From Spirochaetales bacterium (lineage in GTDB: Bacteria; Spirochaetota; Spirochaetia; Treponematales; Treponemataceae), in the NCBI GenBank assembly GCA_003252395.1, contig QKEL01000013.1, positions 189,698-253,697 of the forward strand: DNA of 64,000 nucleotides. Direction: 5' to 3'. Below are positions 1,879 to 54,777 of the stretch, piece by piece. Within the stretch, counting starts at the first letter, position 1. Every line of letters begins with the position of its first letter. Below the pieces are notes generated by a model. The model did not search any database, had not been told where the DNA came from, and saw nothing but the letters and a program-made list of their open reading frames with translations. The position numbers were made by a program, and so were the translations under genes.

Positions 1879-2360
1879 TTGCTTCCTCCTTGCGCGCGCT
1901 TACCCGATAGGTAATCGCGTATGGTCCGGACGACCAGGGCATGGTCTTCCTCCTGGGGCAGCCCAGAGACGGTAACGGTTCCGATGGCGCCGCTTCCCCG
2001 CACGTTGACGGGAAAGCAGCCGCCGTGGGGCGCGTAGTCCCGTTCCGAAACGGCGTACCGCCCCTCAAGGGTCGAACCGTCCCGTTTGAGCTTTTGGCCG
2101 AAATACCAGGAGCTGTGGCCGAATCGATTCACCAAATTCTTTTTTCGTATGACCCAGTGGCCGTTGTCCGGGGCGGTGCCCCGGCACTCATAATGGAACA
2201 ATACCCTGTCCCGGGTAGAAATATCGATTACCACGGCCAGGCCCCCCGCGCGGGCGCGTTCGGCGAATAGGACGCCCAGGTCCCAGGCGTCGTCCTCATC
2301 GAAGGAATCGAAGGTCAGTTCATCCTCTTCCCGTAATAGTTCTTCTAGCGATTGCGTCAT
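1875..2360 (-). CDS. UPF0303 / heme-degrading-domain (GlcG/HbpS-like) protein
   Basis: A 161-residue protein of the UPF0303 family (DUF336 fold, related to GlcG/HbpS). Recognisable segments are the [13 protein letters not shown] strand, the [12 protein letters not shown] turn and the [31 protein letters not shown] block. The biochemical role of the family is poorly defined; yeast and bacterial members have been linked to chaperone or cofactor handling. ATG at 2360 is preferred to an upstream TTG at 2396 because a CATACT -10 box sits 7 nt before it with a TTG-type -35 at 2391-2396. That places the predicted transcript start at or next to the ATG. The gene is coupled to the downstream oxidoreductase by a 4-nt overlap. 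Confidence 0.75.
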   Translation of the reverse strand: [161 protein letters not shown]

Positions 2361-2367
2361 GCCCGTA

Positions 2368-2396
2368 AGTATGCGCCCGAATATCCTCGAGCGCAA
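2368..2396 (-). promoter_or_regulatory. putative leaderless promoter of the UPF0303 gene
   Basis: On the minus strand TTGCGC (2391-2396) is followed after 17 nt by CATACT (2368-2373), and ATG begins 7 nt later. No Shine-Dalgarno fits between the -10 box and the start codon. Confidence 0.5.
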
Positions 2397-2479
2397 GGAT
2401 CGGCTCGAAAAAGCCGGCGGTATTCGCGCGCGCCGGCCGCTTTCCGTTTTTTTAAGGTTTTTTGCCGTAAAATTTCGGG

Positions 2480-2508
2480 TTATCCGCCGCCGGGGCCGAT
2501 GCTACCAT
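2480..2508 (+). promoter_or_regulatory. possible promoter of the Lpl-type transporter operon
   Basis: TTATCC (2480-2485), a 17-nt spacer and TACCAT (2503-2508) lie about 35 nt before the TTG start, leaving room for the AGGGGAG ribosome site at 2529-2535. The boxes match the consensus weakly. Confidence 0.3.
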
Positions 2509-2542
2509 ACCCTCAACAAAAATAAGATAGGGGAGTCTTTTG

Positions 2543-4006
2543 TTGAGTAATCATGAATCGTCCGCCCCCGTCGCGAAAGGCGTGGCGGCGGAAACGGCGG
2601 AAATAGCGCTGAGAATCGCGATCCTTTTCCTGCTCGTGACCTTATTCCTGCCGGGGCTCAACCCCGCGAGGATCAGCGAGAAGATAAACCGCAACATGTC
2701 CCTTTTCACCTCGGGGGTGCTCTACGGGAGCTTAACCGCCGATATGGGCCGGCTCATCGCGAAGGGCTGGGTGCGGTCGGGTACCATGCAGCTCCTCTAC
2801 GCGGCCAGCCTTCTTTCCTGTCTCGGCATGTTCGCCGCCGGGGCCGGCGCGGCCATGACCATGGGGAACGCGCGGTTTAAGCGTTTGGCCCATATTATGG
2901 CCATGTTCGGCTCGGCCGCGGTTCTCGTTGGCCTATTCGGCATACGGCTCGCCCATGCCCAGCTATTAACCATGTCGGACCTGGCCAAGTCGAAGCCCGT
3001 CGAGCCCTTCGCCCTCACGCTGACGGCGATCGTCGCCGCCGCGGTCTTCGGCCTCGCGATACTCTCCCTTATCGCGGTTCCTGCGCCGAAAAAGGGTGAG
3101 GCCTACGCCATGGACACGCGCATGCAGCTTTTCCTGCTTCTGTTGCCCTTCGTCCTATTGGTATTTCTTTTCAACTACCTTCCGCTCTGGGGCTGGCGCT
3201 ACGCGTTTTTCGACTATAAGGTCGGCGACGCGCTCACCGCGGACCGGTTCGTCGGCTTTAAGTGGTTTAGCTACCTGTTCCAAAACGAGGCGACCAAGCG
3301 CGACGTGGTGCGGGTGCTCGTGAATACCCTCGCCATGAGCGGTTTGGGCATTCTCACGAGCTGGTTCCCCATGGCCTTCGCCATTTTCCTGGCGGAGATT
3401 CGCAGCATGAGGCTCAGGCGCTTTATCCAAACCCTGACCACCGTCCCGAATTTCATTTCCTGGGTGCTCGTTTACGCGGTGGCCTTTTGCATCTTCAGCA
3501 CCGACGGCTTCCTTTCCAGCGTCATGGTCAACGCGGGCGTCTGGAGCCAGGGGAAAAACCTATTGATGGGGGAATCGCATATTTGGCTCAAGATGCTCGG
3601 CTGGGGCGTCTGGAAGGGCCTGGGCTGGAGCGCGATCATGTACATCGCGGCCATTAGCGCGATCGATCCCCAGCTGTACGAGGCGGCCACCGTGGACGGC
3701 GCGGGCCGGTTCGGCAAGATGTGGCATATCACCCTGCCCGAGCTGATCCCCACCTACATGGTGCTCCTCCTCCTTTCCATAGCGGGCATTCTCAACAACG
3801 GCATGGAACAGTACCTGGTGTTCGAGAACGCCACCAATACCGACCCGATCACCGTCCTTGACCTGTACGTTTACAAGCTCGGGATCGGGAAGGGCTCCAT
3901 TCCGCTTTCGACCCTGATCGGCATGGTGAAATCCCTCGTCAGCGTCGCGCTCCTTTTCGGCGCGAACGCCATCTCAAAGGCCGTCCGCGGCTCGACCATC
4001 GTATAG
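2543..4006 (+). CDS. oligosaccharide ABC transporter permease (LplB-type) with N-terminal membrane extension
   Basis: An inner-membrane permease of the LplB/YteP class, which works with the next permease and the binding protein to import oligosaccharides. The C-terminal 300 residues carry the usual six-helix MetI-like fold with the EAA loop YEAATVDGAGRFGKMWHITLP-type signature near residue 390. The protein has 487 residues, about 180 more than usual. Residues 1-185 contain roughly four hydrophobic segments (near 20-40, 82-103, 112-135 and 153-178) that I cannot assign to a known domain. Two tandem TTG codons (2540, 2543) are possible starts; 2543 has the better 7-nt spacing from AGGGGAG. No ATPase gene is present nearby, as is normal for Lpl-type systems that use a shared MsmX-like ATPase. 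Confidence 0.85.
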   Translation: MSNHESSAPVAKGVAAETAEIALRIAILFLLVTLFLPGLNPARISEKINRNMSLFTSGVLYGSLTADMGRLIAKGWVRSGTMQLLYAASLLSCLGMFAAGAGAAMTMGNARFKRLAHIMAMFGSAAVLVGLFGIRLAHAQLLTMSDLAKSKPVEPFALTLTAIVAAAVFGLAILSLIAVPAPKKGEAYAMDTRMQLFLLLLPFVLLVFLFNYLPLWGWRYAFFDYKVGDALTADRFVGFKWFSYLFQNEATKRDVVRVLVNTLAMSGLGILTSWFPMAFAIFLAEIRSMRLRRFIQTLTTVPNFISWVLVYAVAFCIFSTDGFLSSVMVNAGVWSQGKNLLMGESHIWLKMLGWGVWKGLGWSAIMYIAAISAIDPQLYEAATVDGAGRFGKMWHITLPELIPTYMVLLLLSIAGILNNGMEQYLVFENATNTDPITVLDLYVYKLGIGKGSIPLSTLIGMVKSLVSVALLFGANAISKAVRGSTIV

Positions 4007-4020
4007 GGAGACGCAACGCG

Positions 4021-10841: not shown

Positions 10842-10871
10842 TAGACGCGCGCCTGTCCGCGGTGTTACCAT
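10842..10871 (+). promoter_or_regulatory. putative leaderless promoter of the DinB gene
   Basis: TAGACG (10842-10847), an 18-nt spacer and TACCAT (10866-10871) are followed after 6 nt (GCCCCC) by the ATG. No ribosome site can be fitted. Confidence 0.4.
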
Positions 10872-10877
10872 GCCCCC

Positions 10878-11393
10878 ATGGACACGCAAACCCTGGATCT
10901 CCTGGCGCGCTACAACGCCAAGGCAAACGCCGCCATGAACGCCCTCATCGCGCCCTTGGGCGACGAGGCGTGGCGGAAAAAATTCGACGGCTACTTCAGT
11001 TCCGTAAAGTCGATGTGCAACCATATTTATATCGGGGATCACAATTGGCTCCGACGCTTCGCCGGCCTTCGGGAATTCGCCTACGCGAAGGACCCGCTAT
11101 TGGCGGGCAAAATCGGCTTCGACGAGCGAGTGGTGGGCACGGTGGGCGAATACCTGGCCATGCGCGAAACCCTGGACCGAAAAATCCTCGAGTTCGCCGC
11201 GGAAGTCCGCCCCGACGATTTCGGCAAGAAACTCGCCTACCTCGATTCCCACGGCGACCGCCACGAACGGGACTTCGGCGGCCTCGTCCTCCACTTTTTC
11301 AATCATCAAACCCATCACCGGGGCATGGTTTCCCTCTACCTGGAATTCCTCGGCGTGCCGAACGACTTCAACAATCTGTACGACCTGCTCTAA
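10878..11393 (+). CDS. DinB-family protein
   Basis: A 171-residue four-helix-bundle protein of the DinB/YfiT superfamily. These metal-binding proteins act in damage responses or as thiol transferases. The conserved histidines are visible: H49 in the first helix (SMCNHIYIGDHNWLRR region) and the HFFNHQTHHRG motif near residues 136-146. The C-terminal NLYDLL is also family-like. ATG 10878 starts the homology. A -10-like box lies only 6 nt upstream, so the mRNA may be leaderless. The thiol partner or substrate is unknown. Confidence 0.85.
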   Translation: MDTQTLDLLARYNAKANAAMNALIAPLGDEAWRKKFDGYFSSVKSMCNHIYIGDHNWLRRFAGLREFAYAKDPLLAGKIGFDERVVGTVGEYLAMRETLDRKILEFAAEVRPDDFGKKLAYLDSHGDRHERDFGGLVLHFFNHQTHHRGMVSLYLEFLGVPNDFNNLYDLL

Positions 11394-14760: not shown

Positions 14761-15378
14761 TTAGGGGATGAGGCTTACGCCGAAGACCTCGGAAATGCCC
14801 GCGATAAGGAAGTGGGCGCCGATCGCGGCGATGAAGATCCAGAGGATCCTGGCGACCACGAGGGTGCCGAGCCGGCCGAGAACGCGGGATATCCAGACGG
14901 AGGCGCGGATGGTGACGAAGCAGACGAGGAAGGTACATACCAGGGCGAGGCCGGCGACGAACCAGCCGTCCCGGTCCAGGATCAATATGGCCGTGACGAT
15001 GGAGCCGGGGCCGACCAATAGGGGTACCGCCATGGGAACCACGCCCATTTCCATGGCCTTCGCCGGGGTGCTTTGGTATTCGAGCGGGTCGTAAAAGACG
15101 ATTTGCTTTATGGCCAAAACGAGGAGGAGTATGCCGCCGGCGATCCGGAATTCGGCCATGTGAATCTGGAATACGTACTGCATGACCCACTGGCCCGTGT
15201 ACATGAGGACGAGCAGGGTAAAAAACCCGGCGAGCACCGCGGTATTGAAGAGCTTGTTCCGGGAGGCCTTGTCCAGGTCCTTGGTCAGTTCCGCGTACAT
15301 GGGAACCACGGTGATCGGGTTCAAAATGGCGATCAGGGCGAGAAAGGCGTTGAAAAACGCCTCAAAATTGAAGTTCAT
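14761..15378 (-). CDS. MarC-family integral membrane protein
   Basis: A 205-residue six-helix inner-membrane protein of the MarC/YchE family. It has the NPITVVPMYAELT motif after the first helix and the repeat-half counterpart MAVPLLVGPGSIVTAI. The family is of unknown transport function; an old link to multiple antibiotic resistance was not upheld. The start at ATG 15378 is supported by a TATACT -10 box 7 nt upstream on the same strand. There is no Shine-Dalgarno, so the transcript is predicted to be leaderless. Confidence 0.9.
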   Translation of the reverse strand: MNFNFEAFFNAFLALIAILNPITVVPMYAELTKDLDKASRNKLFNTAVLAGFFTLLVLMYTGQWVMQYVFQIHMAEFRIAGGILLLVLAIKQIVFYDPLEYQSTPAKAMEMGVVPMAVPLLVGPGSIVTAILILDRDGWFVAGLALVCTFLVCFVTIRASVWISRVLGRLGTLVVARILWIFIAAIGAHFLIAGISEVFGVSLIP

Positions 15379-15385: not shown

Positions 15386-15414
15386 AGTATAGCGGATAAA
15401 CCCGTCTCGGAGAA
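15386..15414 (-). promoter_or_regulatory. putative leaderless promoter of marC-like gene
   Basis: TTCTCC (15409-15414) and TATACT (15386-15391) are 17 nt apart on the minus strand. The ATG begins 7 nt after the -10 box. Confidence 0.5.
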
Positions 15415-31603: not shown

Positions 31604-31632
31604 AGACTTTCGCCCGAAAGCCATGGTATACT
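31604..31632 (+). promoter_or_regulatory. putative leaderless promoter of the YitT-like gene
   Basis: TATACT (31627-31632) with an extended TGG before it lies 6 nt from the ATG. A weak -35 (GAC core near 31605) is present. Confidence 0.5.
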
Positions 31633-31638: not shown

Positions 31639-32529
31639 ATGAAAGCTCAATCGTCCAAATGGTTCGTTTCCCTCTTTTATGCGCTCTTGACGGGCATTGT
31701 GTACGCCGTGGGGATAAAGTATTTTATCCGTCCTGCCGGGGTAATCCTGACGGGAACCGAGGGTATCGCCATATCCACTTCGTATTATTTCGAGAGCGAG
31801 ACCCTTTTCGTTATCCTCTATTCCGTCTTTCAGGCGATATTGATCGCGTTTTCCTTCAAGAAGATCGGGCTCTCGTTTAGCCTGAAAACCCTGATTACCG
31901 TCGCGGTCGTCGCGGTATTGGTCGCCGCGCTTCCCACCTTCCGGGTGGCCTCGCCCGAGAGCGAGAAGGAGCGGATCGTTCTGGTGCTTTTCGGCTCGAT
32001 CATCATGGGCGCGGGGAAGGCCCTGGCCTTGCGAAACCGCGGCTCGGTGGGGGACGAGGATATCGTCGCCGTATATTTTTCCGAGCGGCTGAGGAAGCCC
32101 GTGGGAAACGTGATTCTTATCGCGGGGTGCATAGCCGCGTTCTACGGCCTGGTGCTCGATTATTTGAAGTTCGGGAGCCTGGAACGCACGTTGAATACCC
32201 TGATCTACACGGTTATCTTCCTATTCGTCACCGCCGAGACGGTTAATCTCGTGTATAAGCGCTACCGGTTCTCCGCCCTTGAGATAGTCACGGAGCACGC
32301 GGCGGAGATAGAGGCGGCGCTCTTGCGCATTTTGCCGGGACGGAGCCTTACCCGTTCCACGGCGGTCGGAAGTTTCTCGGGTACCGAGAAGGTGCGGATC
32401 GTGGTGGTGCTGACCCAGGAGGAGCTGCCTGAGGCGCTGGAGGCGGTAGCCGAGTCCGACGCCAAGTGCTTCGCGTATCACTATGAGCTTCAGGGCATTC
32501 AGGGAAGATTCGTCTGGCGGAATTTCTAA
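31639..32529 (+). CDS. YitT-family membrane protein (DUF161/DUF2179)
   Basis: A 296-residue protein with about five to six membrane helices (YALLTGIVYAVGIKYFIRPAGVILTGTEGIAIS start, typical of YitT). A C-terminal DUF2179 ferredoxin-like domain ends in FAYHYELQGIQGRFVWRNF. The transported substrate of the family is not known. The ATG at 31639 begins the homology. Only 6 nt separate it from TATACT, so the message is predicted to be leaderless. The YdcF-like gene follows after 12 nt and may share the transcript. Confidence 0.87.
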   Translation: MKAQSSKWFVSLFYALLTGIVYAVGIKYFIRPAGVILTGTEGIAISTSYYFESETLFVILYSVFQAILIAFSFKKIGLSFSLKTLITVAVVAVLVAALPTFRVASPESEKERIVLVLFGSIIMGAGKALALRNRGSVGDEDIVAVYFSERLRKPVGNVILIAGCIAAFYGLVLDYLKFGSLERTLNTLIYTVIFLFVTAETVNLVYKRYRFSALEIVTEHAAEIEAALLRILPGRSLTRSTAVGSFSGTEKVRIVVVLTQEELPEALEAVAESDAKCFAYHYELQGIQGRFVWRNF

Positions 32530-35859: not shown

Positions 35860-36603
35860 ATGCTTACCATACGGAATTTGAGAAAAAGCTATCACCGCCA
35901 CGAGGTTCTCAAGGGCATTGACCTCACCGTCCGCAAGGGCGACGTGGTGGCCATCCTCGGGCCCTCTGGATCGGGCAAGACCACCCTCCTCAAGACCGTC
36001 AATTTCCTGGAACGGGCCGACGAGGGCAAGATGAATTTCGACGGGATAGAGGTAAACCTCGCCAAGGCCTCCGCCTCGACCATCGCGCGGCTCCGGAAAA
36101 AAACCGCCTTCGTGTTCCAAAGCTATAATCTTTTCAACAATAAGACCGCACTCGAAAACGTGACCGAGGGGCTTATCTACGGGCGGGGCATGAACCCCGC
36201 GGAGGCGAGCGCCGTCGCGCTTCGGGCCCTGGAAAAGGTAGGCCTTTCCGACCGGCTCGACTATTATCCCTCGCGGCTTTCGGGCGGCCAGCAGCAGCGC
36301 GTGGGAATCGCCCGCGCCATCGCGTGCGATCCCGACGTTATTCTCTTCGACGAGCCGACGAGCGCGCTGGACCCTGAGCTGGTGGGGGAAATACTGGCCA
36401 TCATGCGGGACCTGGCGCGGGAAGGCACGACCATGGTGGTGGTTACCCACGAAATGGGCTTTGCCCGCGAGGTCGCCAGCAACGTGGTATTTTTGGACGG
36501 CGGGGTTATCGTAGAGGAAGGCCCTCCCGAGCTTTTTTTCGGCGCGCCTAAGGAAGAGCGTACCCGACAGTTTCTCAAGCGTTTTCTGCCCGTCGCTCCT
36601 TGA
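35860..36603 (+). CDS. amino-acid ABC transporter ATP-binding protein
   Basis: A 247-residue GlnQ/HisP-type ATPase. Walker [10 protein letters not shown] is at residues 34-42, signature LSGGQQQR follows, Walker B is [12 protein letters not shown], and the H-loop is VVVTHEM. It energises polar amino-acid uptake with the preceding three genes. ATG 35860 has GGAAGGAA upstream; a TTG at 35830 is less likely. Confidence 0.95.
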
Positions 36604-36629
36604 CCCGCCACCCCGCGGAGCCCTATCAT
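36600..36629 (+). promoter_or_regulatory. putative leaderless promoter of the pyridoxal-kinase-like gene
   Basis: TTGACC (36600-36605) overlaps the preceding stop. After 18 nt comes TATCAT (36624-36629), and the ATG follows 7 nt later without a ribosome site. Confidence 0.55.
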
Positions 36630-36636: not shown

Positions 36637-37464
36637 ATGACAGGTAACCGCAGCATTGGTCCCGTTCTCGCCGTCAGCGATCTTTCCACCTGGGGCCGCG
36701 TCGCCCTTTCCGCCGGCATTCCGCCCCTGGAGCGCCGGGGCATTCAGGTTTGCGCCCTTCCGACCGCCCTTCTTTCCTCGCACGGCGCCTATCCCGGCGC
36801 GGTAATCCATGCCCAAACCGCTTTTATGGAAGCGGCCCTCGCCCATGTGGAAGGCCTTAATCCCCGTTTCTCCGCGCTTTTCACGGGTTTTATCGCCGAA
36901 GCCGCCCAATTCGCGCTCTTAGGTCCCCTTGCCGCGCGAATCCGGGACAACGGGGGGCTTATCCTCGCCGACCCGGTAATAGGCGACAACGGGCGGCTCT
37001 ACGGTTTTTTCGACGATTCTTTCGTGGAGGCCATGCGGCGCCACGTCGCGGGGGCCGACCTTATTACCCCGAACCTGACGGAGGCCGCCCTGCTCCTGGG
37101 GAAGGCCCCCGACGCCGTCCCCGCCGACCGCATCGAGCTTCGCCGGTGGCTTGAGCGCCTTTCGGGCCTCGGCCCGCGGTACGTCGCCCTCACGAGCGCC
37201 CCCGTTCACGGCCGCGAAGAGCGTACCGGGGTCGCCCTCTACGACGCGAAGCCCCGCCGGTTTTCCCTCCTTACCCATAGCCGGCTTGCCGGGGGTTATC
37301 CGGGAACCGGCGACTTTTTCGCCGCCGAACTCCTGGCCCGCATGCTGAAAGGGGCCCCCTTCCTCCTTGCCGCCCGTTTCGCCGCGGCCCGGGTACGCCG
37401 CGCCATCGGACGCACCCGCCGTATCGGCGCCGATCCCCGCGAGGGCTTGAAAACCCGTTTGTGA
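36637..37464 (+). CDS. pyridoxal/pyridoxamine kinase-like protein
   Basis: A 275-residue ribokinase-fold enzyme most like PdxY/pyridoxamine kinase, which phosphorylates B6 vitamers. Visible family traits are VLAVSDLSTWGRVALSAGIP at the start, the LPTALLSSHGAYPG loop, LADPVIGDNGRLYGFF, ADLITPNLTEAALLLG and the C-terminal GGYPGTGDFFAA anion-hole motif with catalytic Asp. Most relatives have VGRLTAVQG-like variation in the first motif, so substrate specificity is not certain. The message is predicted to be leaderless. Confidence 0.85.
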   Translation: MTGNRSIGPVLAVSDLSTWGRVALSAGIPPLERRGIQVCALPTALLSSHGAYPGAVIHAQTAFMEAALAHVEGLNPRFSALFTGFIAEAAQFALLGPLAARIRDNGGLILADPVIGDNGRLYGFFDDSFVEAMRRHVAGADLITPNLTEAALLLGKAPDAVPADRIELRRWLERLSGLGPRYVALTSAPVHGREERTGVALYDAKPRRFSLLTHSRLAGGYPGTGDFFAAELLARMLKGAPFLLAARFAAARVRRAIGRTRRIGADPREGLKTRL

Positions 37465-38791: not shown

Positions 38792-38820
38792 TTGCCATTT
38801 TCGTCCCGTCCGCACATACT
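38792..38820 (+). promoter_or_regulatory. leaderless promoter of the YwbE gene
   Basis: TTGCCA (38792-38797), exactly 17 nt, CATACT (38815-38820), then 7 nt (GTGCGCC) and ATG 38828. The start is fixed by homology, so this is the cleanest example of the -10-next-to-ATG pattern in the window. Confidence 0.7.
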
Positions 38821-38827: not shown

Positions 38828-39022
38828 ATGACGGGACAAAGCAGACAAGACATTCGCGCGGGGCTCCGGGTTTCCATCGTATTGAAAGAGGATCAGCGCA
38901 CGGGCAAGCGGACCGAGGGGGTGGTTCGGGACATTCTTACCAACTCCCCCAACCATCCGCATGGCATCAAGGTCAGGCTGGAATCGGGCTTGGTCGGCCG
39001 GGTTCAGGAGATACTCGGGTGA
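38828..39022 (+). CDS. ywbE: YwbE-family protein
   Basis: A 64-residue protein that matches the YwbE family (DUF2196) along its full length: RQDIRAGLRVSIVLKEDQRT, GVVRDILTNSPNHPHGIKV and RLESGLVGRVQEIL. The function is unknown; the small beta-barrel pattern suggests nucleic-acid binding. Homology begins at this ATG. The stop overlaps the GTG start of the NUDIX gene, so the two are co-translated. Confidence 0.92.
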   Translation: MTGQSRQDIRAGLRVSIVLKEDQRTGKRTEGVVRDILTNSPNHPHGIKVRLESGLVGRVQEILG

Positions 39023-39665: not shown

Positions 39666-40889
39666 ATGGACCGACAACTTCTTCCTCGGCGATTTACCGT
39701 CGGATGCGTGCTCATAATCAACGCCGCCATTTGGATGTCCATTGACGCCTTGAATACGGTAGTCATGGGAAATCCCCGCGTCTTAGGTTCCCTCATTCCC
39801 TGGGTTCTCGGCATTGGCTGGTTCGGCGTGACGCTTCTCGCCTGGGGCCTCTTCCTCGGCATGCGGAAATCCCGGCGCTACGGCCTGATGGTTGACATGA
39901 ACCTTCAAATCAACCGCGCCATCCTCATCGACGAGGACATAGACAGAATCTACGACACGGTGCTCGATTACGTGTTCATGATCTTTCCCAACGCGAAATT
40001 CGGTTCAGTCCTTACCCTAGACGAGAAGGGGTATCTCACCTTCGCGGCCTCCAAGGGCTACGCGGGCAATTACGTGAATAACTTCTGCCTCAAGCTGGAA
40101 GAGTCCTTCATCTTCCAGGAATCGAGGGGCGCCATAGAACGCGCCCTCTTGATCCGCAAAAAGGCCCTCAAGCGGCTTTTTACCCGGTTTTACCCCGATA
40201 CCTGGAAGTTTCAATCGGTAATCAGCGCCCCGCTTTTCGTGAACGGGCGGCTATTCGGCCTTTTAAATCTCGATTCCGGTAAGCCAAACACCTTCGCGCC
40301 TTCCGACGTGGCCATCGTGGAGCGGGTCGCCTCGCAGATAGAGGTGTGCCTCTATGCCCGGGGAATCTACCTCGAGCGCCTGGAAGAGTCCCGGGAAGAC
40401 GCGTTAACCGGCCTTTTAACCCGTCGCGCGTTCGAAGAACTGCTTTGCCGGGAAATATCGCGGGCAAGCCGGTATTCCCAGTGTTTTGTCCTCGCCCTCA
40501 TCGACGCGGACGGCCTGAAGCGGGTGAACGACTCCCTCGGGCACCGCGCCGGGGACCGGTTCCTCATGACGATCGCCCAACGCCTCCGGTACGGGAACCG
40601 AACCAGCGATATTACCGGCAGGTTCGGCGGCGACGAGTTCGTGGTCCTCTATCACGGCTGCGACACCGAGGCGATACGGCATAAGCTGGACGCGGACCTC
40701 GCCGCCCTCCGTTCCTCCCCGGTGGCTTTCGAGGGCGCGTCGATCGTCCCCTCATTCTCCTACGGGCTGGCGAGCTTTCCCGAAGAGGGCGTTTCTCTCG
40801 ACGAATTGACCGACGTGGCGGACCGGCGGCTTTACGAAATGAAGAACCTGAGGCGTTCCGTCAATTCGAACCGGCATACGGAGGCGTAA
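39666..40889 (+). CDS. diguanylate cyclase with two membrane helices and GAF domain
   Basis: A 407-residue protein. Helices at about residues 10-30 and 40-62 are followed by a GAF domain (about 75-235: FPNAKFGSVLTLDEKGYLTF, then VISAPLFVNGRLFGLLNLDS). A GGDEF domain (about 245-400) follows with an intact FGGDEF and DALTGLLTRRAF start. It should make cyclic di-GMP in response to a ligand of the GAF domain. The DUF4256 gene begins on the base after its stop, so the two are likely co-transcribed. Confidence 0.9.
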   Translation: MDRQLLPRRFTVGCVLIINAAIWMSIDALNTVVMGNPRVLGSLIPWVLGIGWFGVTLLAWGLFLGMRKSRRYGLMVDMNLQINRAILIDEDIDRIYDTVLDYVFMIFPNAKFGSVLTLDEKGYLTFAASKGYAGNYVNNFCLKLEESFIFQESRGAIERALLIRKKALKRLFTRFYPDTWKFQSVISAPLFVNGRLFGLLNLDSGKPNTFAPSDVAIVERVASQIEVCLYARGIYLERLEESREDALTGLLTRRAFEELLCREISRASRYSQCFVLALIDADGLKRVNDSLGHRAGDRFLMTIAQRLRYGNRTSDITGRFGGDEFVVLYHGCDTEAIRHKLDADLAALRSSPVAFEGASIVPSFSYGLASFPEEGVSLDELTDVADRRLYEMKNLRRSVNSNRHTEA

Positions 40890-45353: not shown

Positions 45354-46223
45354 TTACGCCTCGAGGGAGCGGAGCCGTTCTATCGTGAGCGGCGCGCTTC
45401 CCTCGAAATGGTTATTCACGTATACCTGCACCAGGCGGCTTCCCCGCGCGAGTTCCGCGATCGCCTCGGCCGTCCGCCTGAGGTCTTCTTTCGGTTCCGC
45501 GAGCCGGTTCCATTCGCCCTTGGTCTTCTCCTCTATCGCTTTTCGGTCCCCGCCTAAAAGCCGTACCGCGCACCGTTCCCCGATGAGGTCCCCGTGCCTT
45601 TCCACCAGCTCGTGGACGCGGGGAAGGTATATCTTTTCGGAAAATACGTGGCTCAGCCCCGAATCTTTCAGGAAACGGAAGTATTCCCGGGTCAGGTAAT
45701 TCGCGTTCCGGCATTCAATGCCCAGGGGCACCCGCCGCTCACGCGGAATTTCCCGTTCCACCGCCTCGGCGAAGGCCCCGAGCCGTTTCATGAACTCGTC
45801 GACCCCGGGCATTTTTTGTTTATTGAGATACTCGAATTCGAGTTCCGCGAGAAAGACGCGGTCACGCAGGGGAGCCAATCCGCGCAGGTATTCGTCGTAC
45901 GCGCTCGCCGAAAGAAAATCCGGGTTGGGAATAAGGGGCGCGCCTTTGTCCCTGCTCCTTTCATGGGTTAGGCTAACGCGCTCGCTCACCTTGCAGGCAA
46001 AGGTAAACCCTTCCGGCGTGCGCTCGCGGTACTCTCGCGCGTCTTGGGTGTCGGGCATGCGGTAGAACCAGCTATCCACCTCCACGGTGGGGTACCGGGA
46101 CGAATACTCCGTAAGGTACGCGGCAGAGTAGGGCTCCTTGCGGGAGTACACCAGGCCGATCCAGGAATCGTAATTCCAGGAACAGGTGCCCAGGGGAACC
46201 CGCTCCAAAAGGTTTGCGCTCAT
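45354..46223 (-). CDS. DUF72-family protein (YecE-like)
   Basis: A 289-residue TIM-barrel-like protein of the DUF72 family: LGTCSWNYDSWIGLVYS, the YSSRYPTVEVDSWFYRMPD motif, EGFTFACKVSERVS and the C-terminal VQVYVNNHFEGSAPLTIERL. The family has no established function. The ATG at 46223 is preceded 6 nt away by CATACT on the same strand and lacks a ribosome site. It is divergent from the RMD1-like gene, 69 nt apart. Confidence 0.92.
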   Translation of the reverse strand: MSANLLERVPLGTCSWNYDSWIGLVYSRKEPYSAAYLTEYSSRYPTVEVDSWFYRMPDTQDAREYRERTPEGFTFACKVSERVSLTHERSRDKGAPLIPNPDFLSASAYDEYLRGLAPLRDRVFLAELEFEYLNKQKMPGVDEFMKRLGAFAEAVEREIPRERRVPLGIECRNANYLTREYFRFLKDSGLSHVFSEKIYLPRVHELVERHGDLIGERCAVRLLGGDRKAIEEKTKGEWNRLAEPKEDLRRTAEAIAELARGSRLVQVYVNNHFEGSAPLTIERLRSLEA

Positions 46224-46229: not shown

Positions 46230-46235
46230 AGTATG
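46230..46235 (-). promoter_or_regulatory. -10 box of the DUF72 gene, leaderless
   Basis: CATACT on the minus strand ends 6 nt before the ATG. The -35 match is weak. Confidence 0.45.
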
Positions 46236-46280: not shown

Positions 46281-46286
46281 TATACT
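46281..46286 (+). promoter_or_regulatory. -10 box of the RMD1-like gene, leaderless
   Basis: TATACT is followed by GGTGGT and ATG 46293. The GGTGG could resemble a ribosome site but is too close to the start to work as one. Confidence 0.45.
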
Positions 46287-46292: not shown

Positions 46293-47456
46293 ATGGCCAA
46301 AAAAAGTAACGCTAACCGGTTGCATGAACTCGTTTTTTTCAGGATTTTCGACGTTGGTAGGGCCATTAACCTGCCTTCTTTGCAAAAAAGCCTCGCGGTG
46401 AGGGAGGAAGGCCCCACCGTCAGGGCTCCCTCTCGCCGCGACACGCCCGCCTCTTTGTCGCTTCCCCGCCCGCTGTTGGTTCCGCTCAAATCCGCCGCCT
46501 CAGAAGGGTACGGAACGCTCAAGGCCGAGGCGAAGGTCTACGAAGACGGCGCCATTACCGTGTGCCTCCGCCTTCGCGTCGCGACGAGCCTAGCGGGGCT
46601 CGAAACCATCGCCGGGGCGCCCATCGTCCGCGCGGACCGGCCGGGGGAAGCCTCCGGGAGCGCCGCGCCGGGCGAAACGATTACCCTCTCGGCATGGGCC
46701 GACCGGCTCTTCGGCGAAATGATCGATTTAATACGCCCCGCCATCCTTGATCCCGCCTCAAACCCCGGCAAGGATTTTGAGACCTATATCGCGTTTTGCA
46801 TGCTGGAATGCCCCGAGGGCCCGGAACGGTACGTGGAAAAAAACCGGACCGCCATCGCCTCGTTGATGATGGGCGCCCCGGCCGGCGAGGAGATTCACGA
46901 GCAAAAGATCGCCGAAACCCTCGCGAAGCCCTTTTCCTACGCCGCGACCGACATGGCGGTCTTCGACCTTGACCGCTGCTTTATCATAGATCCCCGGGGC
47001 GAGTACGAGGATATCCTTCTCATGATCGAGCACGCGAACTATCGCCTTCTGGAACTGCGGGTTCTGGACCGCCTCTTGGACAAGCGGCTCGACGAGGCGG
47101 AACGCGACCTCGGCTCCTTCTCCCGCCGGGGTCGGGCCCCCGTGGGCGCCGTGCGTAAGAAATTCGCGCGCATTCAATCCCTCCGCTTCGTCGCCCTGTT
47201 CGTGCTGGAAAACCTGGAAAACTCCTCGAAAATCATCGGCGACTACTACCTCGGCCAGATTTACGACCGCCTCTGCGCCCTGTTCAACACCGACGGTTGG
47301 AGCCGGTCGGTGGAACGCCGGCTGGATATATTGACCTCGGTATACGAGATGGTGAAGACCGACAACGCGGAGCGCCGGACCCTGGTCCTGGAAATCGTGT
47401 TTATCGCGGTGTGCATTATCCTCCCGGTCATCCAGATCTGGCAGGCTCTCTTATAG
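46293..47456 (+). CDS. RMD1/DUF155-like membrane-anchored protein
   Basis: A 387-residue protein with a single C-terminal membrane helix (LVLEIVFIAVCIILPVIQIW) preceded by RLDILTSVYEMVKTDNAERR. The middle has YAATDMAVFDLDRCFIIDP and a long helix pair (NYRLLELRVLDRLLDKRLDEAERDL). This layout matches the RMD1/YagE (DUF155) family known from fungi and some bacteria, with no defined bacterial role. The N-terminal third is Ala/Arg/Pro-rich and less conserved. The message is predicted to be leaderless. The family call is moderately sure. Confidence 0.65.
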   Translation: MAKKSNANRLHELVFFRIFDVGRAINLPSLQKSLAVREEGPTVRAPSRRDTPASLSLPRPLLVPLKSAASEGYGTLKAEAKVYEDGAITVCLRLRVATSLAGLETIAGAPIVRADRPGEASGSAAPGETITLSAWADRLFGEMIDLIRPAILDPASNPGKDFETYIAFCMLECPEGPERYVEKNRTAIASLMMGAPAGEEIHEQKIAETLAKPFSYAATDMAVFDLDRCFIIDPRGEYEDILLMIEHANYRLLELRVLDRLLDKRLDEAERDLGSFSRRGRAPVGAVRKKFARIQSLRFVALFVLENLENSSKIIGDYYLGQIYDRLCALFNTDGWSRSVERRLDILTSVYEMVKTDNAERRTLVLEIVFIAVCIILPVIQIWQALL

Positions 47457-48723: not shown

Positions 48724-48729
48724 TATACT
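48724..48729 (+). promoter_or_regulatory. -10 box of the DUF523 gene, leaderless
   Basis: TATACT ends 6 nt (TGATCC) before ATG 48736. TGGCAA at 48701-48706 is a possible -35 with a 17-nt spacer. Confidence 0.45.
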
Positions 48730-48735: not shown

Positions 48736-49734
48736 ATGGACGCGATCATAAAAGAGAAGATACACATCGGGATATCCGCCTGCCAATTCGGGGCGAAGGT
48801 ACGCTATAACGGCAAGGGCCAGGACGTAACCCGCCTGATCGGGAGGGAGCGCGCCGATTTCGTGTGGCATCCCGTCTGTCCCGAAGTCATGAGCGGCCTC
48901 GGCGTTCCCCGGGTGCCGGTGAGCCTTCGGGGCGGCAACGGCGACGATTTTTGGGCCGGAAAGGCCGAAGTCAAATCCCGGGACGGGGACGTACTCGGGG
49001 AATGGATGCGCATGGGCTGCGCGGCCTGCCTCGATTCCCTGGAACGCGCCGGGATCAAGGCCTTCGTTTTTATGGAAGGAAGCCCCTCCTGCGGCGTGTA
49101 CCGCACCTCGCTCAAAAACCGCCGCCTTGGCCATCCGCCCGGCATTTTCGGCTCCCTCCTTTTAGAAAAGGGCTTTTTCCTGATACCCGCTCCCGACCTG
49201 CAAAGCCCCATACGGTGGTGGGACTGGCGGCGCAGGCTCTTCGCCTTTCTGTGGCTCGACGCAAAGCCCTTTGACCGGGCGGGAGAGGTCGTGGAGTGCT
49301 GGCATATCCTCAAATTCCTCTGCCAGGAACTTTCGCGCTCCGAAGCCGATGGCATGGGAAAGGAAATCGCGAGCCTGAAAGGGGTTGGACCGGAGGCCCT
49401 GCAGGCGCTGAAGCGGCGGATGCTCGACCTTTTGCGCAGGCCCTCGGACATTCAGAATATAAAGCAGTCGCTTTGGAAAAATTACCGATTCCTGAATAAA
49501 CGGTTCGGGATCGAGTCGGAAACCGTCAAAATGCCCGCCGAGGAGCGCGGCATGACCCGTATCGCGGCGGAATTGCTCTCCCTCGAGATCGTGACGTCGC
49601 GGCAAAACCTGCTGTTCGGTCCCGTTCCCGTCCATTACGACCGGTCCGGTTCCGGTACTCCCGAAGCGGACGAAGCGGACGAAGCGGACGCGGCGAATGA
49701 CCCGGAGCCCGCCGGGGACGCTGAATCGAACTAA
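48736..49734 (+). CDS. DUF523-domain protein with long C-terminal extension
   Basis: A 332-residue protein. Residues about 8-160 are a DUF523 domain: IGISACQFGAKVRYNG, HPVCPEVMSGLGVPRVPV, RMGCAACLDSLERAGIKAFV and MEGSPSCGVYRT, with conserved cysteines that may bind a metal cluster. The C-terminal part is helical and ends in an acidic tail with EADEADEADAAND. The function is unknown. Its stop overlaps the convergent RlmN stop by 4 nt. The transcript is predicted to be leaderless. Confidence 0.85.
   Translation: MDAIIKEKIHIGISACQFGAKVRYNGKGQDVTRLIGRERADFVWHPVCPEVMSGLGVPRVPVSLRGGNGDDFWAGKAEVKSRDGDVLGEWMRMGCAACLDSLERAGIKAFVFMEGSPSCGVYRTSLKNRRLGHPPGIFGSLLLEKGFFLIPAPDLQSPIRWWDWRRRLFAFLWLDAKPFDRAGEVVECWHILKFLCQELSRSEADGMGKEIASLKGVGPEALQALKRRMLDLLRRPSDIQNIKQSLWKNYRFLNKRFGIESETVKMPAEERGMTRIAAELLSLEIVTSRQNLLFGPVPVHYDRSGSGTPEADEADEADAANDPEPAGDAESN
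49663..49689. repeat. 9-bp coding tandem repeat
   Basis: GAAGCGGAC is repeated three times without change in the DUF523 gene and encodes a Glu-Ala-Asp tail. Slippage here would change the length but keep the frame. Confidence 0.8.
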
Positions 49735-50834
49735 GCCCCCGTTCGGGGCGGAGAGCCGCGTTCCGGGGCGAGTTGGCCGCAGGAAGCGCGGATTCCCGCT
49801 CCCTTTCCCTTGCGCGTGAAGGCCGGAATGCCCCGTTCCCGCAGAAGGCGCCAGAACCGTTCCACGTCGCCTTCCGTCGCGGAAGGCAGGGCGCTCCGCT
49901 CCGGGGCCACGAAGGCGATCAGGTTAACCTTTGCCGTGAGCCCCTCGAGATAGGCGCACAGGGCGTCCGCGGCCCCTGCCGTATCGTTCAAACCGGGAAT
50001 GACCAGGTACTCGAAATACAGCCGGTCCTTGACGCGGGAGTGGGGGAGGGCCAGCAGGGCCTCTTTTAATCGCGCGAGCGGCCACGTTTGATTGACCGGC
50101 ATGAGGGAACCGCGCACGCCGTCCAGGGCCGAATGAAGGCTTATTGCCACGGTTACCAGGTCGAAGCGGGCCGTTCCGTCCGCGCCCGCCCCGCGCCGCT
50201 TCGCGAGTTCGGCGAACCGCTCCAAGCCCGGAACGTGACCGCAGGTGGAAACGCTGACGTTCCCGCTCAAAAGCGCCGCTCCCCGGGGATCGGTAAGAAT
50301 CTCAACCGCCGTTCGTACCGCGCCGAAATTGTCGAAGGGCTCCCCCATCCCCATGAAAACGGCGTTCTCGATATCCGCGCCGAAGAAAAAGCGCGCCGTC
50401 AGGTACTGGGCCGTAATTTCCCCCGCGCTCAGGTTCCTCCCGAGGCCCATGGCCCCCGTTCTGCAGAAGGCGCACCCCCGGGCGCAGCCCGCCTGGGTCG
50501 AGACGCACAGGGTCGTGTGGGTCGCCATGGGAACGATTACCGCCTCGATCTCGTAGCCGTCTTCCAGGGCAAGGGTAAACTTCACGGTATCGCCTTCCCG
50601 CTCCGTTCTGGCGACGGGGGGGAGGGCGCGGCCGAAATCCTCGGTTATGCGGGTCGCCAGCGCCCGATTGTCCCGGAATTCTTCCCGGTCGATGAGCCCC
50701 GCTAGGGAACCCTTCCCGTAGAGGTGGTTCACTGTCGCGCGCGCGTGGAAGCGGCCCTTGCCGTAGCGGCGGGCAAATTCCGCGGCGAGGTCCGATTCCG
50801 TCATGCCGAATATATCCGGGCGGGGAAGGTTCAT
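49731..50834 (-). CDS. rlmN: RlmN-type 23S rRNA (A2503-C2)-methyltransferase
   Basis: A 367-residue radical-SAM methyltransferase that methylates A2503 of 23S rRNA and, in some bacteria, A37 of tRNAs. The cluster motif C-x3-C-x2-C is at residues 117, 121 and 124 within STQAGCARGCAFCRTGAMG, and the second catalytic cysteine is C352 in RASCGQL. The MGMGEPFDNF motif is also present. Length is normal. ATG 50834 begins the homology; TATACT lies 6 nt upstream and no Shine-Dalgarno exists, so the message looks leaderless. Confidence 0.92.
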   Translation of the reverse strand: MNLPRPDIFGMTESDLAAEFARRYGKGRFHARATVNHLYGKGSLAGLIDREEFRDNRALATRITEDFGRALPPVARTEREGDTVKFTLALEDGYEIEAVIVPMATHTTLCVSTQAGCARGCAFCRTGAMGLGRNLSAGEITAQYLTARFFFGADIENAVFMGMGEPFDNFGAVRTAVEILTDPRGAALLSGNVSVSTCGHVPGLERFAELAKRRGAGADGTARFDLVTVAISLHSALDGVRGSLMPVNQTWPLARLKEALLALPHSRVKDRLYFEYLVIPGLNDTAGAADALCAYLEGLTAKVNLIAFVAPERSALPSATEGDVERFWRLLRERGIPAFTRKGKGAGIRASCGQLAPERGSPPRTGA

Positions 50835-50840
50835 GGGGTG

Positions 50841-50846
50841 AGTATA
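50841..50846 (-). promoter_or_regulatory. -10 box of rlmN, leaderless
   Basis: TATACT on the minus strand is separated from the ATG by CACCCC (6 nt). TTCCCC at 50865-50870 is the nearest -35-like match. Confidence 0.5.
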
Positions 50847-52026: not shown

Positions 52027-52039
52027 GGGGCCGTGCCGC

Positions 52040-52447
52040 TCACCGCGCGTAGGGTCCCGTTTCGGTAGGGTAGGGCCAGGCGTTTATTCCGCCCGCGTCG
52101 TATACGCGGGTATAACCGGCTTGCAGCAATCTCAGCGCCGCGTTCCTGCTTCGGTTGCCTGACCGGCAATAGACGATAATGGGCGCGTTTTTATCCGGCA
52201 GTTCCTTTCCCATGCGGGCGGCCAGTTCGTAATCCGGAATCAGCACGCTGCCGGGAATATGTCTTTGCGCGTACTCGTCGGGAGTCCGCACGTCCAGGAG
52301 AACGGCGGTCTTGTCCTGTTCGAGCATCCTCTTGGCCTCCGCCGGGGAAAGCGCGCGATAGGGGGCTATTGCCGACGCGCCTTGGGCCGCAACGGACAGT
52401 GAGGCGACAACCATGGAAACGATTAGGAAACCGAGGGTTTTCTTCAT
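52040..52447 (-). CDS. exported single-domain rhodanese
   Basis: A 135-residue exported protein. Signal peptide MKKTLGFLIVSMVVASLSVAA is followed by one rhodanese domain with VLLDVRTPDEYAQRHIPGSV and the catalytic loop CRSGNRS. It acts in the periplasm, probably as a sulfurtransferase or persulfide carrier. AAGGAGTGAATT precedes the ATG. Upstream lies a GTGAC-GTCAC inverted repeat 22 nt from a TATGTT -10 box, matching the arrangement in front of the CoA-disulfide reductase-rhodanese gene. The two may be co-regulated. Confidence 0.92.
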   Translation of the reverse strand: MKKTLGFLIVSMVVASLSVAAQGASAIAPYRALSPAEAKRMLEQDKTAVLLDVRTPDEYAQRHIPGSVLIPDYELAARMGKELPDKNAPIIVYCRSGNRSRNAALRLLQAGYTRVYDAGGINAWPYPTETGPYAR

Positions 52448-52483
52448 GAATTCACTCCTTCTCGCAGTGCCCTGCGTACCGTA

Positions 52484-52526
52484 AACATAAAACAAGGAGG
52501 GTCGAGGGACCGTGACAAACGTCACG
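52484..52526 (-). promoter_or_regulatory. promoter and inverted-repeat activator site of the periplasmic rhodanese gene
   Basis: On the minus strand CGTGAC-GTTT-GTCACG (52511-52526) is a perfect inverted repeat. Its core ends 22 nt before TATGTT (52484-52489), so the centre lies at about -41.5. No -35 box is seen. This matches the site at 10722-10762. Confidence 0.5.
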
Positions 52527-52540
52527 AACTTACAAACGCA

Positions 52541-52569
52541 TTGCCGAATCCGGTCGAACGTGCGAATAT
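52541..52569 (+). promoter_or_regulatory. putative leaderless promoter of the QueG-like gene
   Basis: TTGCCG (52541-52546), 17 nt, and GAATAT (52564-52569) with an extended TGC before it. The ATG at 52577 follows 7 nt later. Confidence 0.5.
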
Positions 52570-52576
52570 GGGGGCC

Positions 52577-53299
52577 ATGAACCCGTCCGCGACAGACTTT
52601 TTCGATTCGGTAAAATCCTGGGGCGCGAGCGACGCGGCCGTTTCCCGGCCGGGCGACGGCCCCGCGGGCCTGGCGTTCGCCGTGTCCCTCGCGCTTCGCC
52701 TCTCCGACGCGGTGATCGACGAGATCGCCGACGAGCCGACCTATACCTATTTCCATCATTATCGAACCGCGAACGCCTTTCTCGACCGTCTCGCCCTGCA
52801 GGCCGGCCTCTTCCTCCAGGATACGGGGGCGCGCTACCTTCCCGTCGCCGCGTCCCAGAGCGCGCCCGATTCAGGCGCCGACGGCGCGTTCCCGTACGGT
52901 GGCCCCTTCGCGGGGCGTTACTCCCATAAAAAGGCCGCCTGCCTTTCCGGCCTTGGCGCCATGGGACGGAGCAATCTCTTTCTTCACCGCCAATGGGGGC
53001 CCCGGGTTCGGCTCGTGACCGTATTCACGGATTGGAAGGAGCTGGAGGCCCTCTGCGGGAGCGGGAGCGAAACGGCGGGCGCGGTTCCCGAGCGGACGGG
53101 CCCGGCGCTTTCCCATCGGTGCGCCGGCTGCGAGCGGTGCGTCGCCGCCTGTCCCGCCCTCGCCATCGGCCTCTCGCCCGACGGACCGGTATTCGATCCG
53201 GCGAAATGCAGCGCTTGGATGAAAAAGGAATACCGACATATCGGCCGCGGCGCGGTGTGCGGAATTTGCATGCGCGTGTGTCCTTCCAGAGCGGAATAG
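52577..53299 (+). CDS. 4Fe-4S protein related to epoxyqueuosine reductase
   Basis: A 240-residue protein with a QueG-like layout, but shorter. The N-terminal part has YTYFHHYRTANAFLDRLALQ and CLSGLGAMGRSNLFLH. The C-terminal double-cluster ferredoxin has CAGCERCVAACP and CGICMRVCPS. It likely carries two [4Fe-4S] clusters and perhaps a cobamide or other cofactor. Whether it reduces epoxyqueuosine is not certain; the length and N-terminus suggest a paralogue. It is divergent from the periplasmic rhodanese. Alternative starts are at 52541 (TTG) and 52568. Confidence 0.75.
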   Translation: MNPSATDFFDSVKSWGASDAAVSRPGDGPAGLAFAVSLALRLSDAVIDEIADEPTYTYFHHYRTANAFLDRLALQAGLFLQDTGARYLPVAASQSAPDSGADGAFPYGGPFAGRYSHKKAACLSGLGAMGRSNLFLHRQWGPRVRLVTVFTDWKELEALCGSGSETAGAVPERTGPALSHRCAGCERCVAACPALAIGLSPDGPVFDPAKCSAWMKKEYRHIGRGAVCGICMRVCPSRAE

Positions 53300-53345
53300 C
53301 GCCGTAAAAAACCGAAAAAGGCGTTATGGAACGATAAAAGTCGTG

Positions 53346-53351
53346 TATAAT
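53346..53351 (+). promoter_or_regulatory. -10 box of the GH43 gene, leaderless
   Basis: TATAAT ends 7 nt (GCTTCCT) before ATG 53359. The earlier in-frame ATG at 53350 lies inside the -10 box and cannot be used by this transcript. Confidence 0.5.
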
Positions 53352-53358
53352 GCTTCCT

Positions 53359-54777
53359 ATGGAAAACTTCAGAACCTTCGGAAATCCGTACATGCCTTCC
53401 TGGGAGTACGTACCCGACGGCGAACCCCACGTGTTCGGCAATCGGGTCTATGTATACGGCTCTCATGACCGGTTTAACGGTCATGTGTTTTGCCTGGGCG
53501 ATTACGTATGCTGGTCTGCCCCGGTAGACGATCTAACGCTCTGGACGTACGAGGGCGTAATCTACAAAAAGACCGACGACCCGTTGAATCCGCTCGGGGC
53601 CATGTGCCTGTACGCCCCCGACGTTACCCGGGGAACCGACGGACGCTATTACCTCTATTACGTGCTCGACAAGGTTTCGGTGGTTTCGGTGGCCGTTTCC
53701 GCCAAACCCGCCGGTCCCTTCTCGTTTTACGGGTACGTCAGGCATGAAAACGGCGAACTCCTCGGCGCGGCCGAGGGCGACGAGCCCCAATTCGACCCGG
53801 GGGTCCTGACCGAGGGCGATCTGACCTATCTCTATACCGGGTTTTGCGGGGTCGGGGATCGGTCGAGAACCGGGCCCATGCTCAGCGTAATCGGTCCCGA
53901 TATGCTCACGCTCCAACGCGGGCCGGAGCGGTTGCTGCCGAGCCAGCCCTTTTCCCAGGGTTCCGGTTTCGAGGGACACGAATACTTCGAGGCGGCCAGC
54001 ATTCGAAAATACCGGGGCCTGTATTATTTTATCTATTCCTCGGTGGTCATGCACGAGCTCTGCTACGCGACCAGCGATCGGCCGGACGGGGGCTTCCGCT
54101 ACCGGGGCGTCCTCGTGAGCAATAACGATTCGCACGTCGGCGGTTACAAGGACCCGGAGGAACCGGCCTATTACGGCGGCAACAACCACGGGAGCATCGC
54201 CGAAATCGGCGGTCGCTGGTACGTCTTCTACCACCGCCATACCCACGGCACCACCTTTTGCAGGCAGGCGTGCGCCGAGCCGCTGGTACCGGGCCCCGAC
54301 GGCACCTTCCTGCAGGCGGAGCTTACCTCGCAGGGCCTTCGCGGGGAACCCTTCCCCGCCCGGGGCAGGTACCCGGCCTATATCGCCTGCAACCTTTCCT
54401 GCGGCGTGGTTTCGCCCTACACCGCGCAGTCCGCCTGGCCCGACAACCGGTTCCCCCTGATTACCCAGGAGGGAAAGGACGGCGACCGGGTGGACGGATA
54501 CGTGGCGAACATGATGGCCGGCGCGGAGGCGGGGTTCAAATACTTCGATTTCCGCGGCGTTACGGCCCTTTCGATCCGGGTCCGGGGATATTGCAAGGGG
54601 GACTTTGTCGTTGCCCTCTCCCGCAAGGGGCCCGCGGCGGCCAGAATCCGGGTGGATTTCACCAACGTCTGGACCGACTACCGCGCGCCGCTTGCCGTTC
54701 CCGACGGCACGTATCCGCTCTATCTCCGATTCGAGGGAGACGGATTGGCGAGCCTGGAGTCCTTCGAGTTCGAATGA
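53359..54777 (+). CDS. GH43-family glycoside hydrolase with C-terminal CBM-like domain
   Basis: A 472-residue cytosolic enzyme (no signal peptide) of glycoside hydrolase family 43, which cleaves alpha-L-arabinofuranosyl or beta-xylosyl bonds. The five-bladed propeller part (residues about 1-310) has FGNRVYVYGSHDRFNG, CLYAPDVTRGTDGRYYLYYV, EGHEYFEAASIRKYRGLYYF and YFIYSS. The usual acidic triad is probably Asp35-36 region, Asp90 and Glu near 210. A C-terminal CBM6-like sandwich follows (YFDFRGVTALSIRVRGY to the end). It faces the sensor-kinase operon and likely processes imported arabinoside or xyloside for the neighbouring transporter. Confidence 0.9.
   Translation: MENFRTFGNPYMPSWEYVPDGEPHVFGNRVYVYGSHDRFNGHVFCLGDYVCWSAPVDDLTLWTYEGVIYKKTDDPLNPLGAMCLYAPDVTRGTDGRYYLYYVLDKVSVVSVAVSAKPAGPFSFYGYVRHENGELLGAAEGDEPQFDPGVLTEGDLTYLYTGFCGVGDRSRTGPMLSVIGPDMLTLQRGPERLLPSQPFSQGSGFEGHEYFEAASIRKYRGLYYFIYSSVVMHELCYATSDRPDGGFRYRGVLVSNNDSHVGGYKDPEEPAYYGGNNHGSIAEIGGRWYVFYHRHTHGTTFCRQACAEPLVPGPDGTFLQAELTSQGLRGEPFPARGRYPAYIACNLSCGVVSPYTAQSAWPDNRFPLITQEGKDGDRVDGYVANMMAGAEAGFKYFDFRGVTALSIRVRGYCKGDFVVALSRKGPAAARIRVDFTNVWTDYRAPLAVPDGTYPLYLRFEGDGLASLESFEFE

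Follow-up and report, generated by a model that had tools for sequence, protein, structure and literature searches.

Candidate leaderless genes with a -10 hexamer 6 or 7 nucleotides before the ATG in treponeme-like spirochaetes

Background

A class of leaderless genes is already known in spirochaetes, from a prediction made in 2011 and from a transcript-start map of Leptospira, and the finding described here is ordinary in kind. We analyzed a 64,000-nucleotide stretch of DNA (the window; contig QKEL01000013.1 of assembly GCA_003252395.1, positions 189,698 to 253,697) from a treponeme-like spirochaete, in which twelve genes carry a -10-like promoter hexamer immediately before the start codon, and followed this arrangement in a larger sample of the source genome and in ten other spirochaete samples. 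We consider it highly likely that the twelve sites and the genome-wide class to which they belong are housekeeping promoters fused to the start codon, which would yield leaderless mRNAs. To what was known, the analysis adds the clear -35/-10/ATG pattern across 11 samples, a bias toward AUG, and an alternation with Shine-Dalgarno (SD) sites in homologues within one genus.

The 2011 survey predicted TANNNT leaderless genes in 207 of 953 bacterial genomes, among them 6 of 18 Spirochaetes genomes, in which 1.8-6.9% of genes were leaderless (PMC3160421). As in our data, its TANNNT signal lies about 12 bp upstream of the start and SD and TA signals replace one another between orthologues, a substitution that was measured there in Actinobacteria and Streptococcaceae; the two analyses differ in that 6 of 18 spirochaete genomes were positive there, whereas all 11 samples studied here peak at the same position when -35 and -10 elements are scored together. 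In Leptospira interrogans, a member of the same phylum by name, differential RNA sequencing identified leaderless transcripts, with about 440 genes having a 5' untranslated region of less than 10 nt and 170-184 starting exactly at the start codon (PMC5243855). The only promoter motif reported in that paper is that of sigma-54, whereas a clear TTGAC-N17-TATACT-N6-ATG is seen in the treponeme-like spirochaetes. Leaderless transcripts of Borrelia are described as being of high frequency in a ribosome paper (PMC10618245).

Similar arrangements occur outside the spirochaetes. In Deinococcus, a "-10 motif adjacent to ORF" class, with a -10-like hexamer about 6-7 bp before the open reading frame (ORF), exists beside a ribosome-binding-site class; TACACT is the commonest hexamer and the transcripts are assumed to be leaderless (PMC12340547). 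Nearly a third of Deinococcus genes belong to this class, in contrast to an excess of 3-14% by conservative count here; a TTG -35 box at spacer 17 is common in our set. In mycobacteria, as here, either a -10 hexamer or an SD site is found upstream of the start, the two being mutually exclusive (PMC4633059). A search of the open-access literature found no transcript-start map for a treponeme, and the genes described below provide this lineage with a concrete list of candidate leaderless genes.

Samples and counting

The source assembly is a metagenome-assembled genome (MAG) of 3.41 Mb in 15 contigs, 93% complete. We regard the organism as a treponeme-like spirochaete because the nearest relatives of its RecA are spirochaetal: an uncultured Treponema MAG at 82% identity, a Spirochaetaceae MAG at 79% and Treponema parvum at 78%, in a search that may have passed over the organism's own record. 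The own-genome sample comprises the window and 20 further stretches (357 genes, 13.6% of the genome), with a GC content of 58%, compared to 61% in the window. Together with ten other samples (1 from the same genus, 5 from the same family, 3 from the same order and 1 from the same class) it forms a pooled set of 11 samples and 1715 genes; a 200 kb sample of E. coli (148 genes) served as control.

Gene starts were taken from a 3-periodic Markov caller that uses coding potential alone and is blind to upstream motifs. It replaced a codon-usage-only caller of lower coverage, whose results had pointed the same way. When tried on one stretch of E. coli, it recovered 38 of 42 annotated genes, as judged by the stop codon; of the 45 coding sequences listed there, two truncated and one very short were excluded, which leaves the 42. 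Genes less than 80 nt from the end of a stretch were removed before counting. The gap is the number of nucleotides between the end of the hexamer and the start codon, and in the counts of gene starts the -10 motif was scored as strict TANNNT. Any of GGAG, GAGG or AGGA at -20 to -4 (-18 to -5 for homologues) was counted as SD-like. First-like genes were defined by orientation and a 60-nt gap only, and genes without a known neighbor were counted as not first. The background per position was taken from gaps 15-69; since these include real promoters, the excess figures are conservative. The P-values are rough, because the pooled genes are related.

Position of the -10 hexamer

TANNNT stands at gap 6-7 of 37 of the 357 genes in the own-genome sample, against 9.1 expected (P=3e-12), with 23 at gap 6 and 14 at gap 7 compared to 4.55 per position. 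The initial annotation had proposed a comparison with shuffled upstream regions, and the motif proved much rarer there than in the real sequence: 200 dinucleotide shuffles gave a mean of 8.16 and a maximum of 17. For the window alone the count is 9 of 60 called genes (mean 1.18 and maximum 5 in 200 shuffles), to be compared with 28 of 297 in the rest of the own-genome sample, and no special enrichment of the window is claimed. Two of these nine, called at 39708 (GTG) and 46380 (TTG) and not among the twelve genes noted, are probably mis-called starts.

In the pooled samples the background is 32.8 hexamers per position, and the count rises to 109 at gap 6 and to 67 at gap 7; the excess at gap 6-7 has P<0.02 in 10 of the 11 samples. 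Gene starts carry the hexamer at rates of 0.0636 (gap 6) and 0.0391 (gap 7), compared to 0.0082 and 0.0158 for internal in-frame ATGs (n=12084), where the gap-7 value belongs to a row of equally high peaks that recur with the 3-nt period of the codons. A combined -35/-10 score, computed leaving one genome out at a time and compared over gaps 0-14, is highest at gap 6 in 11 of 11 samples, with an excess corresponding to 3.3-14.2% of genes; the value for E. coli is -4.2%. No peak was found in the E. coli control, where TANNNT occurs at gap 6-7 in 2 of the 148 genes against 4.9 expected.

Promoter elements

When the 156 genes with TANNNT at gap 6-7 in nine samples are aligned, a TTGAC-like box stands out as the strongest signal besides the -10. 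TTG is found at spacer 15-19 in 82 of the 156, and the counts peak sharply at 17 (51 genes, with 20 at 18, 8 at 16 and 0-4 at every other spacer from 8 to 29), which is the placement of a sigma-70 -35 box. Within the own genome, 11 of 37 class genes have TTG at spacer 15-19, compared to 0-3 when the search is shifted. It is on these unselected counts that the evidence for the -35 box rests; the sets of 82 and 94 genes used below and above were preselected for a TTG -35.

The same geometry emerges from a scan free of gene calling, in which TTG[AC]-N16-18-TANNNT was followed to a start codon opening a frame of at least 60 codons. From 1834 sites in the 11 samples, ATG is found 65 times at gap 6 and 49 times at gap 7. 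The count falls to 22 at gap 8 and 20 at gap 9, and gaps 15-39 average 12.2. No comparable excess was seen at gaps 6 and 7 for GTG (6 and 8 vs 5.6), TTG (9 and 6 vs 5.8) or CTG (8 and 12 vs 6.6), the 12 for CTG being the highest non-ATG value. Only 77 sites were found in E. coli, none of them at gaps 6-7, and so small a number carries little weight.

Start base, start codon and Shine-Dalgarno sites

At gap 6-7 the A of the ATG falls at or next to the usual sigma-70 +1 position, and RNA polymerase prefers a pyrimidine at -1 followed by a purine at +1. A pyrimidine directly precedes the ATG in 84 of the 94 TTG-bearing genes of the class, compared to 500 of 796 SD genes (p=4e-8) and 330 of 511 others, and this holds in each gap class (56/61 and 28/33). 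Taken with the peak at gap 6, it fits an RNA start at the A of the ATG.

All 94 TTG-bearing genes begin with ATG, compared to 796 of 889 SD genes (p=1e-4). GTG accounts for 0 of these 94 and 4 of the whole class of 156, numbers with little power against a low GTG share. In mycobacteria either ATG or GTG may stand at the 5' end (PMC4633059); in our samples GTG is without clear excess. The AUG bias, if it holds, would separate this lineage from mycobacteria and raises the question of which features of the ribosome determine the start codons that leaderless initiation tolerates.

The class has few SD-like sites. In the own genome they precede 5 of 37 class genes and 173 of 309 other genes (p=8e-7), and a CCTCC anti-SD is present in two relatives, G008 and G014; both support the coexistence of two modes of initiation that the initial annotation had proposed. 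Its view that operonic genes keep SD sites stands as a tendency: SD-like sites occur at 462 of 758 not-first genes and 441 of 957 first-like genes, and the SD-free TTG-bearing class at 16 of 758 and 71 of 957, respectively, where first-like is judged by orientation and distance only. The same view of exported proteins fared less well. Hydrophobic N-termini are found in 16 of 87 leaderless-class and 264 of 903 SD genes (p=0.034), a weak divider of the modes, and membrane proteins of the MarC and YitT families are among the twelve. The base composition of codons 2-6 showed no large difference.

The twelve genes of the window

The elements of the twelve sites are as follows.

2368-2373, minus strand: -10 CATACT, gap 7 to the ATG at 2360 of an HbpS-like gene (Pfam), 1875-2360
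2391-2396, minus strand: -35 TTGCGC, spacer 17 to the -10 at 2368
10866-10871, plus strand: -10 TACCAT, gap 6 to the ATG at 10878 of a DinB family gene, 10878-11393
15386-15391, minus strand: -10 TATACT, gap 7 to the ATG at 15378 of a MarC family membrane protein gene, 14761-15378
31627-31632, plus strand: -10 TATACT, gap 6 to the ATG at 31639 of a YitT family membrane protein gene, 31639-32529
36600-36605, plus strand: -35 TTGACC, spacer 18 to the -10 at 36624
36624-36629, plus strand: -10 TATCAT, gap 7 to the ATG at 36637 of a pyridoxamine-kinase-like gene (below the NCBIfam cut-off), 36637-37464
38792-38797, plus strand: -35 TTGCCA, spacer 17 to the -10 at 38815
38815-38820, plus strand: -10 CATACT, gap 7 to the ATG at 38828 of a DUF2196/YwbE-like gene, 38828-39022
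46230-46235, minus strand: -10 CATACT, gap 6 to the ATG at 46223 of a DUF72 gene, 45354-46223, divergent partner of 46293
46281-46286, plus strand: -10 TATACT, gap 6 to the ATG at 46293 of a gene with no Pfam or NCBIfam match, 46293-47456
48724-48729, plus strand: -10 TATACT, gap 6 to the ATG at 48736 of a 2-thiouracil desulfurase family gene, 48736-49734
50841-50846, minus strand: -10 TATACT, gap 6 to the ATG at 50834 of an RlmN/Cfr-type radical SAM paralogue, 49731-50834
52541-52546, plus strand: -35 TTGCCG, spacer 17 to the weak -10 at 52564 (scored as spacer 18 with the hexamer one base on)
52564-52569, plus strand: weak -10 GAATAT, gap 7 to the ATG at 52577 of a 4Fe-4S protein gene, 52577-53299
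53346-53351, plus strand: -10 TATAAT, gap 7 to the ATG at 53359 of a GH43 gene, 53359-54777

All twelve hexamers reported in the initial annotation are present 6 or 7 nt before an ATG. Eight are strict TANNNT (six TATACT or TATAAT, plus TACCAT and TATCAT); the other four are three CATACT and the GAATAT at 52564, which is the least certain of the sites. The three TTG -35 boxes named at the outset were found, and TTGCGC at 2391-2396 can be added to them. The absence of SD sites was confirmed at 11 of the 12 genes, the exception being gene 36637, with GGAG at -20 to -17. The motif-blind caller gives the same start for 10 of the 12, and the claim that homology fixes two of the starts is reasonable both for YwbE (DUF2196) and for the RlmN-like gene, although the latter is a divergent paralogue.

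Homologues in the same genus

Genomes of the same genus were searched with two stretches as queries, and all counts for homologous places are among the matches listed, 30 per search. These supply 23 places with an alignable N-terminus, covering 10 of the 12 genes; gene 31639 lies outside the two query stretches and no homologue was listed for 52577. The places are the best tblastn places, not tested as reciprocal; G001 contributes two of them and G005 a short match, and one duplicate locus was dropped.

At 15 of the 23 places a -10-like hexamer stands at gap 6-8 of an in-frame ATG with no SD site, and at 7 an SD-like site occurs without such a hexamer; none has both, and the single place with neither has no ATG in the scored frame. 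The same rule applied at eight shifted positions gave 0, 0, 0, 3, 0, 0, 0 and 1. The protein alignment extends from residue 1 in 16 of the 23.

For four genes the species differ, some having the -10 form and others the SD form. The four genes are 15378 (TATAGT at gap 6 in G002, SD-like in G003), 38828 (-10 in G002 at gap 8, in G003 at gap 7 and in the short G005 match at gap 7; SD-like in G007), 46293 (TATACT at gap 6 in G002 and G003, SD-like in G006) and 53359 (-10 in G002 at gap 6 and G008 at gap 7; SD-like in G001 and G009). Among the places scored, the -10 form was found for 2360 (TATACT at gap 6 in G006), 36637 (TATCAT in G002 and G008, where the in-frame ATG at gap 7 is displaced by 3 or 5 codons), 46223 (GATACT at gaps 8 and 7 at the two G001 places) and 50834 (gap 7 in G003; TACACT at gap 6 in G002). 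The homologue of 10878 in G003 has AGGA within TAGGAT at gap 6 and was scored SD-like, an ambiguous case among the seven. Gene 48736 is SD-like in G008; in G009 TATACT lies 7 nt before an out-of-frame ATG and was counted as neither. Such alternation between same-genus homologues offers natural pairs for asking what drives a change of initiation mode.

Across the samples, 88 reciprocal-best pairs include 6 leaderless-leaderless (1.1 expected) and 4 leaderless-SD (13.9 expected), the former not being independent, as 3 of the 6 come from one family.

Interpretation

The genes of the -10/ATG class are very probably leaderless genes. We propose that an RNA polymerase of the sigma-A/70 type would bind TTGAC-N17-TANNNT and start the RNA 6-7 nt further downstream, at the A of the ATG, leaving at most about 1 nt before the AUG, and that the ribosome would begin directly at this 5'-terminal AUG without SD pairing. 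More than half of the other genes in this genome, above all those that are not first, have an SD-like site, and over evolution a gene could switch between the two modes. The leaderless reading made in the initial annotation is supported by the -35 box at spacer 17, the pyrimidine at -1, the ATG-only TTG-bearing set, the homologues and the scan free of gene calling.

Several observations weigh against this interpretation. A TTG -35 at spacer 15-19 is found at only 4 of the 12 window sites, and the -10 at 52564 is poor. The caller places two of the twelve starts elsewhere (46380 for 46293, 52568 for 52577). The whole class of 156 includes 4 GTG and 2 TTG starts beside 150 ATG. The own-genome class is only mildly richer in first-like genes (24/35 vs 170/314), and no 16S was found in the MAG, so that the anti-SD of the source organism was not seen. 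In G049, a family member of 38% GC, TANNNT alone shows no excess (10 vs 10.4 expected), although its combined -35/-10 score still peaks at gap 6 (7 vs 1.5); G008 and G012, too, show only a small excess.

Could the sites be AT-rich hexamers that happen to lie near starts and were picked by eye? TANNNT is short and some of the picks, CATACT and GAATAT, are imperfect, but the excess at gap 6-7 exceeds every control: the background at other gaps is flat, the 200 shuffles, internal ATGs and E. coli show no such peak, and both the -35 boxes and the gene-call-free scan agree with promoters. Chance is thus hardly credible as an explanation. It is very unlikely, too, that the starts are misplaced, with the real ones lying downstream behind their own SD sites and the promoters making short leaders. 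The two disagreements of the caller, and its agreement with only 31 of 38 annotated E. coli starts, leave some room for this; against it, most of the homologous places align from residue 1, most keep an ATG 6-8 nt after a -10, and the -1 pyrimidine is tied to the proposed ATG.

Upstream AT-rich biases have been discussed either as sites for ribosomal protein S1 or as leaderless promoters (PMC5397173), and the hexamer might be an A/U-rich ribosome (S1) enhancer on leadered transcripts from promoters further upstream. An S1 site needs neither -35 spacing nor SD scarcity nor first-gene enrichment, and because the motif has all three, with a -35 peak at exactly 17 nt, we give this reading a very slim chance. 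An RNA that begins 2-3 nt to either side of the ATG, producing a tiny leader or a clipped codon from a real promoter, overlaps in part with the preferred explanation and is unlikely rather than implausible. The gap varies from 6 to 8, and a weak second excess of TANNNT is present at gap 9 in the pooled samples (48 vs 32.8, P=0.008), one gene, which we take to be GyrB-like, having TATACT at gap 9 in both G000 and G008; the gap-6 peak and the -1 pyrimidine in both gap classes fit a start at the A instead.

Fusion of the housekeeping promoter to the start codon might also be viewed more broadly. We suggest, tentatively and as something short of probable, that a single cis-element of ancient origin, TTGAC-N17-TANNNT-N6-AUG, is common to treponeme-type spirochaetes and unites the promoter with the start codon; it would be restricted to AUG and placed at first genes, and genes would flip between it and SD initiation within a genus. 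Its usage could then be well above 3-14%, and the ribosome would be adapted to translate 5'-AUG messages as efficiently as leadered ones. Start-site annotation in this lineage should model a leaderless class.

Further observations

No match at the gathering score was obtained in an Rfam search of the window. The G008 sample (same genus; L132-L141) is 66% called coding, compared to 77-87% in the other spirochaete samples, and may contain many decayed genes or be poorly fitted by the caller.

The RlmN-like gene at 49731-50834 (minus strand) is a second, divergent copy that scores 209 of the 290 bits of the RlmN cut-off and falls below the Cfr cut-offs. The other RlmN copy of the source genome, at C1:729949-730761, matches it at 36%. 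Among 11 same-genus genomes, several of them incomplete, close copies were found only in G002 (62%) and G003 (69%).

The divergent genes 46223 (DUF72) and 46293 (unknown protein) have 69 nt between their ATGs and a -10 at gap 6 each, so that the 45 nt separating the -10 boxes would be common to two putative leaderless promoters.

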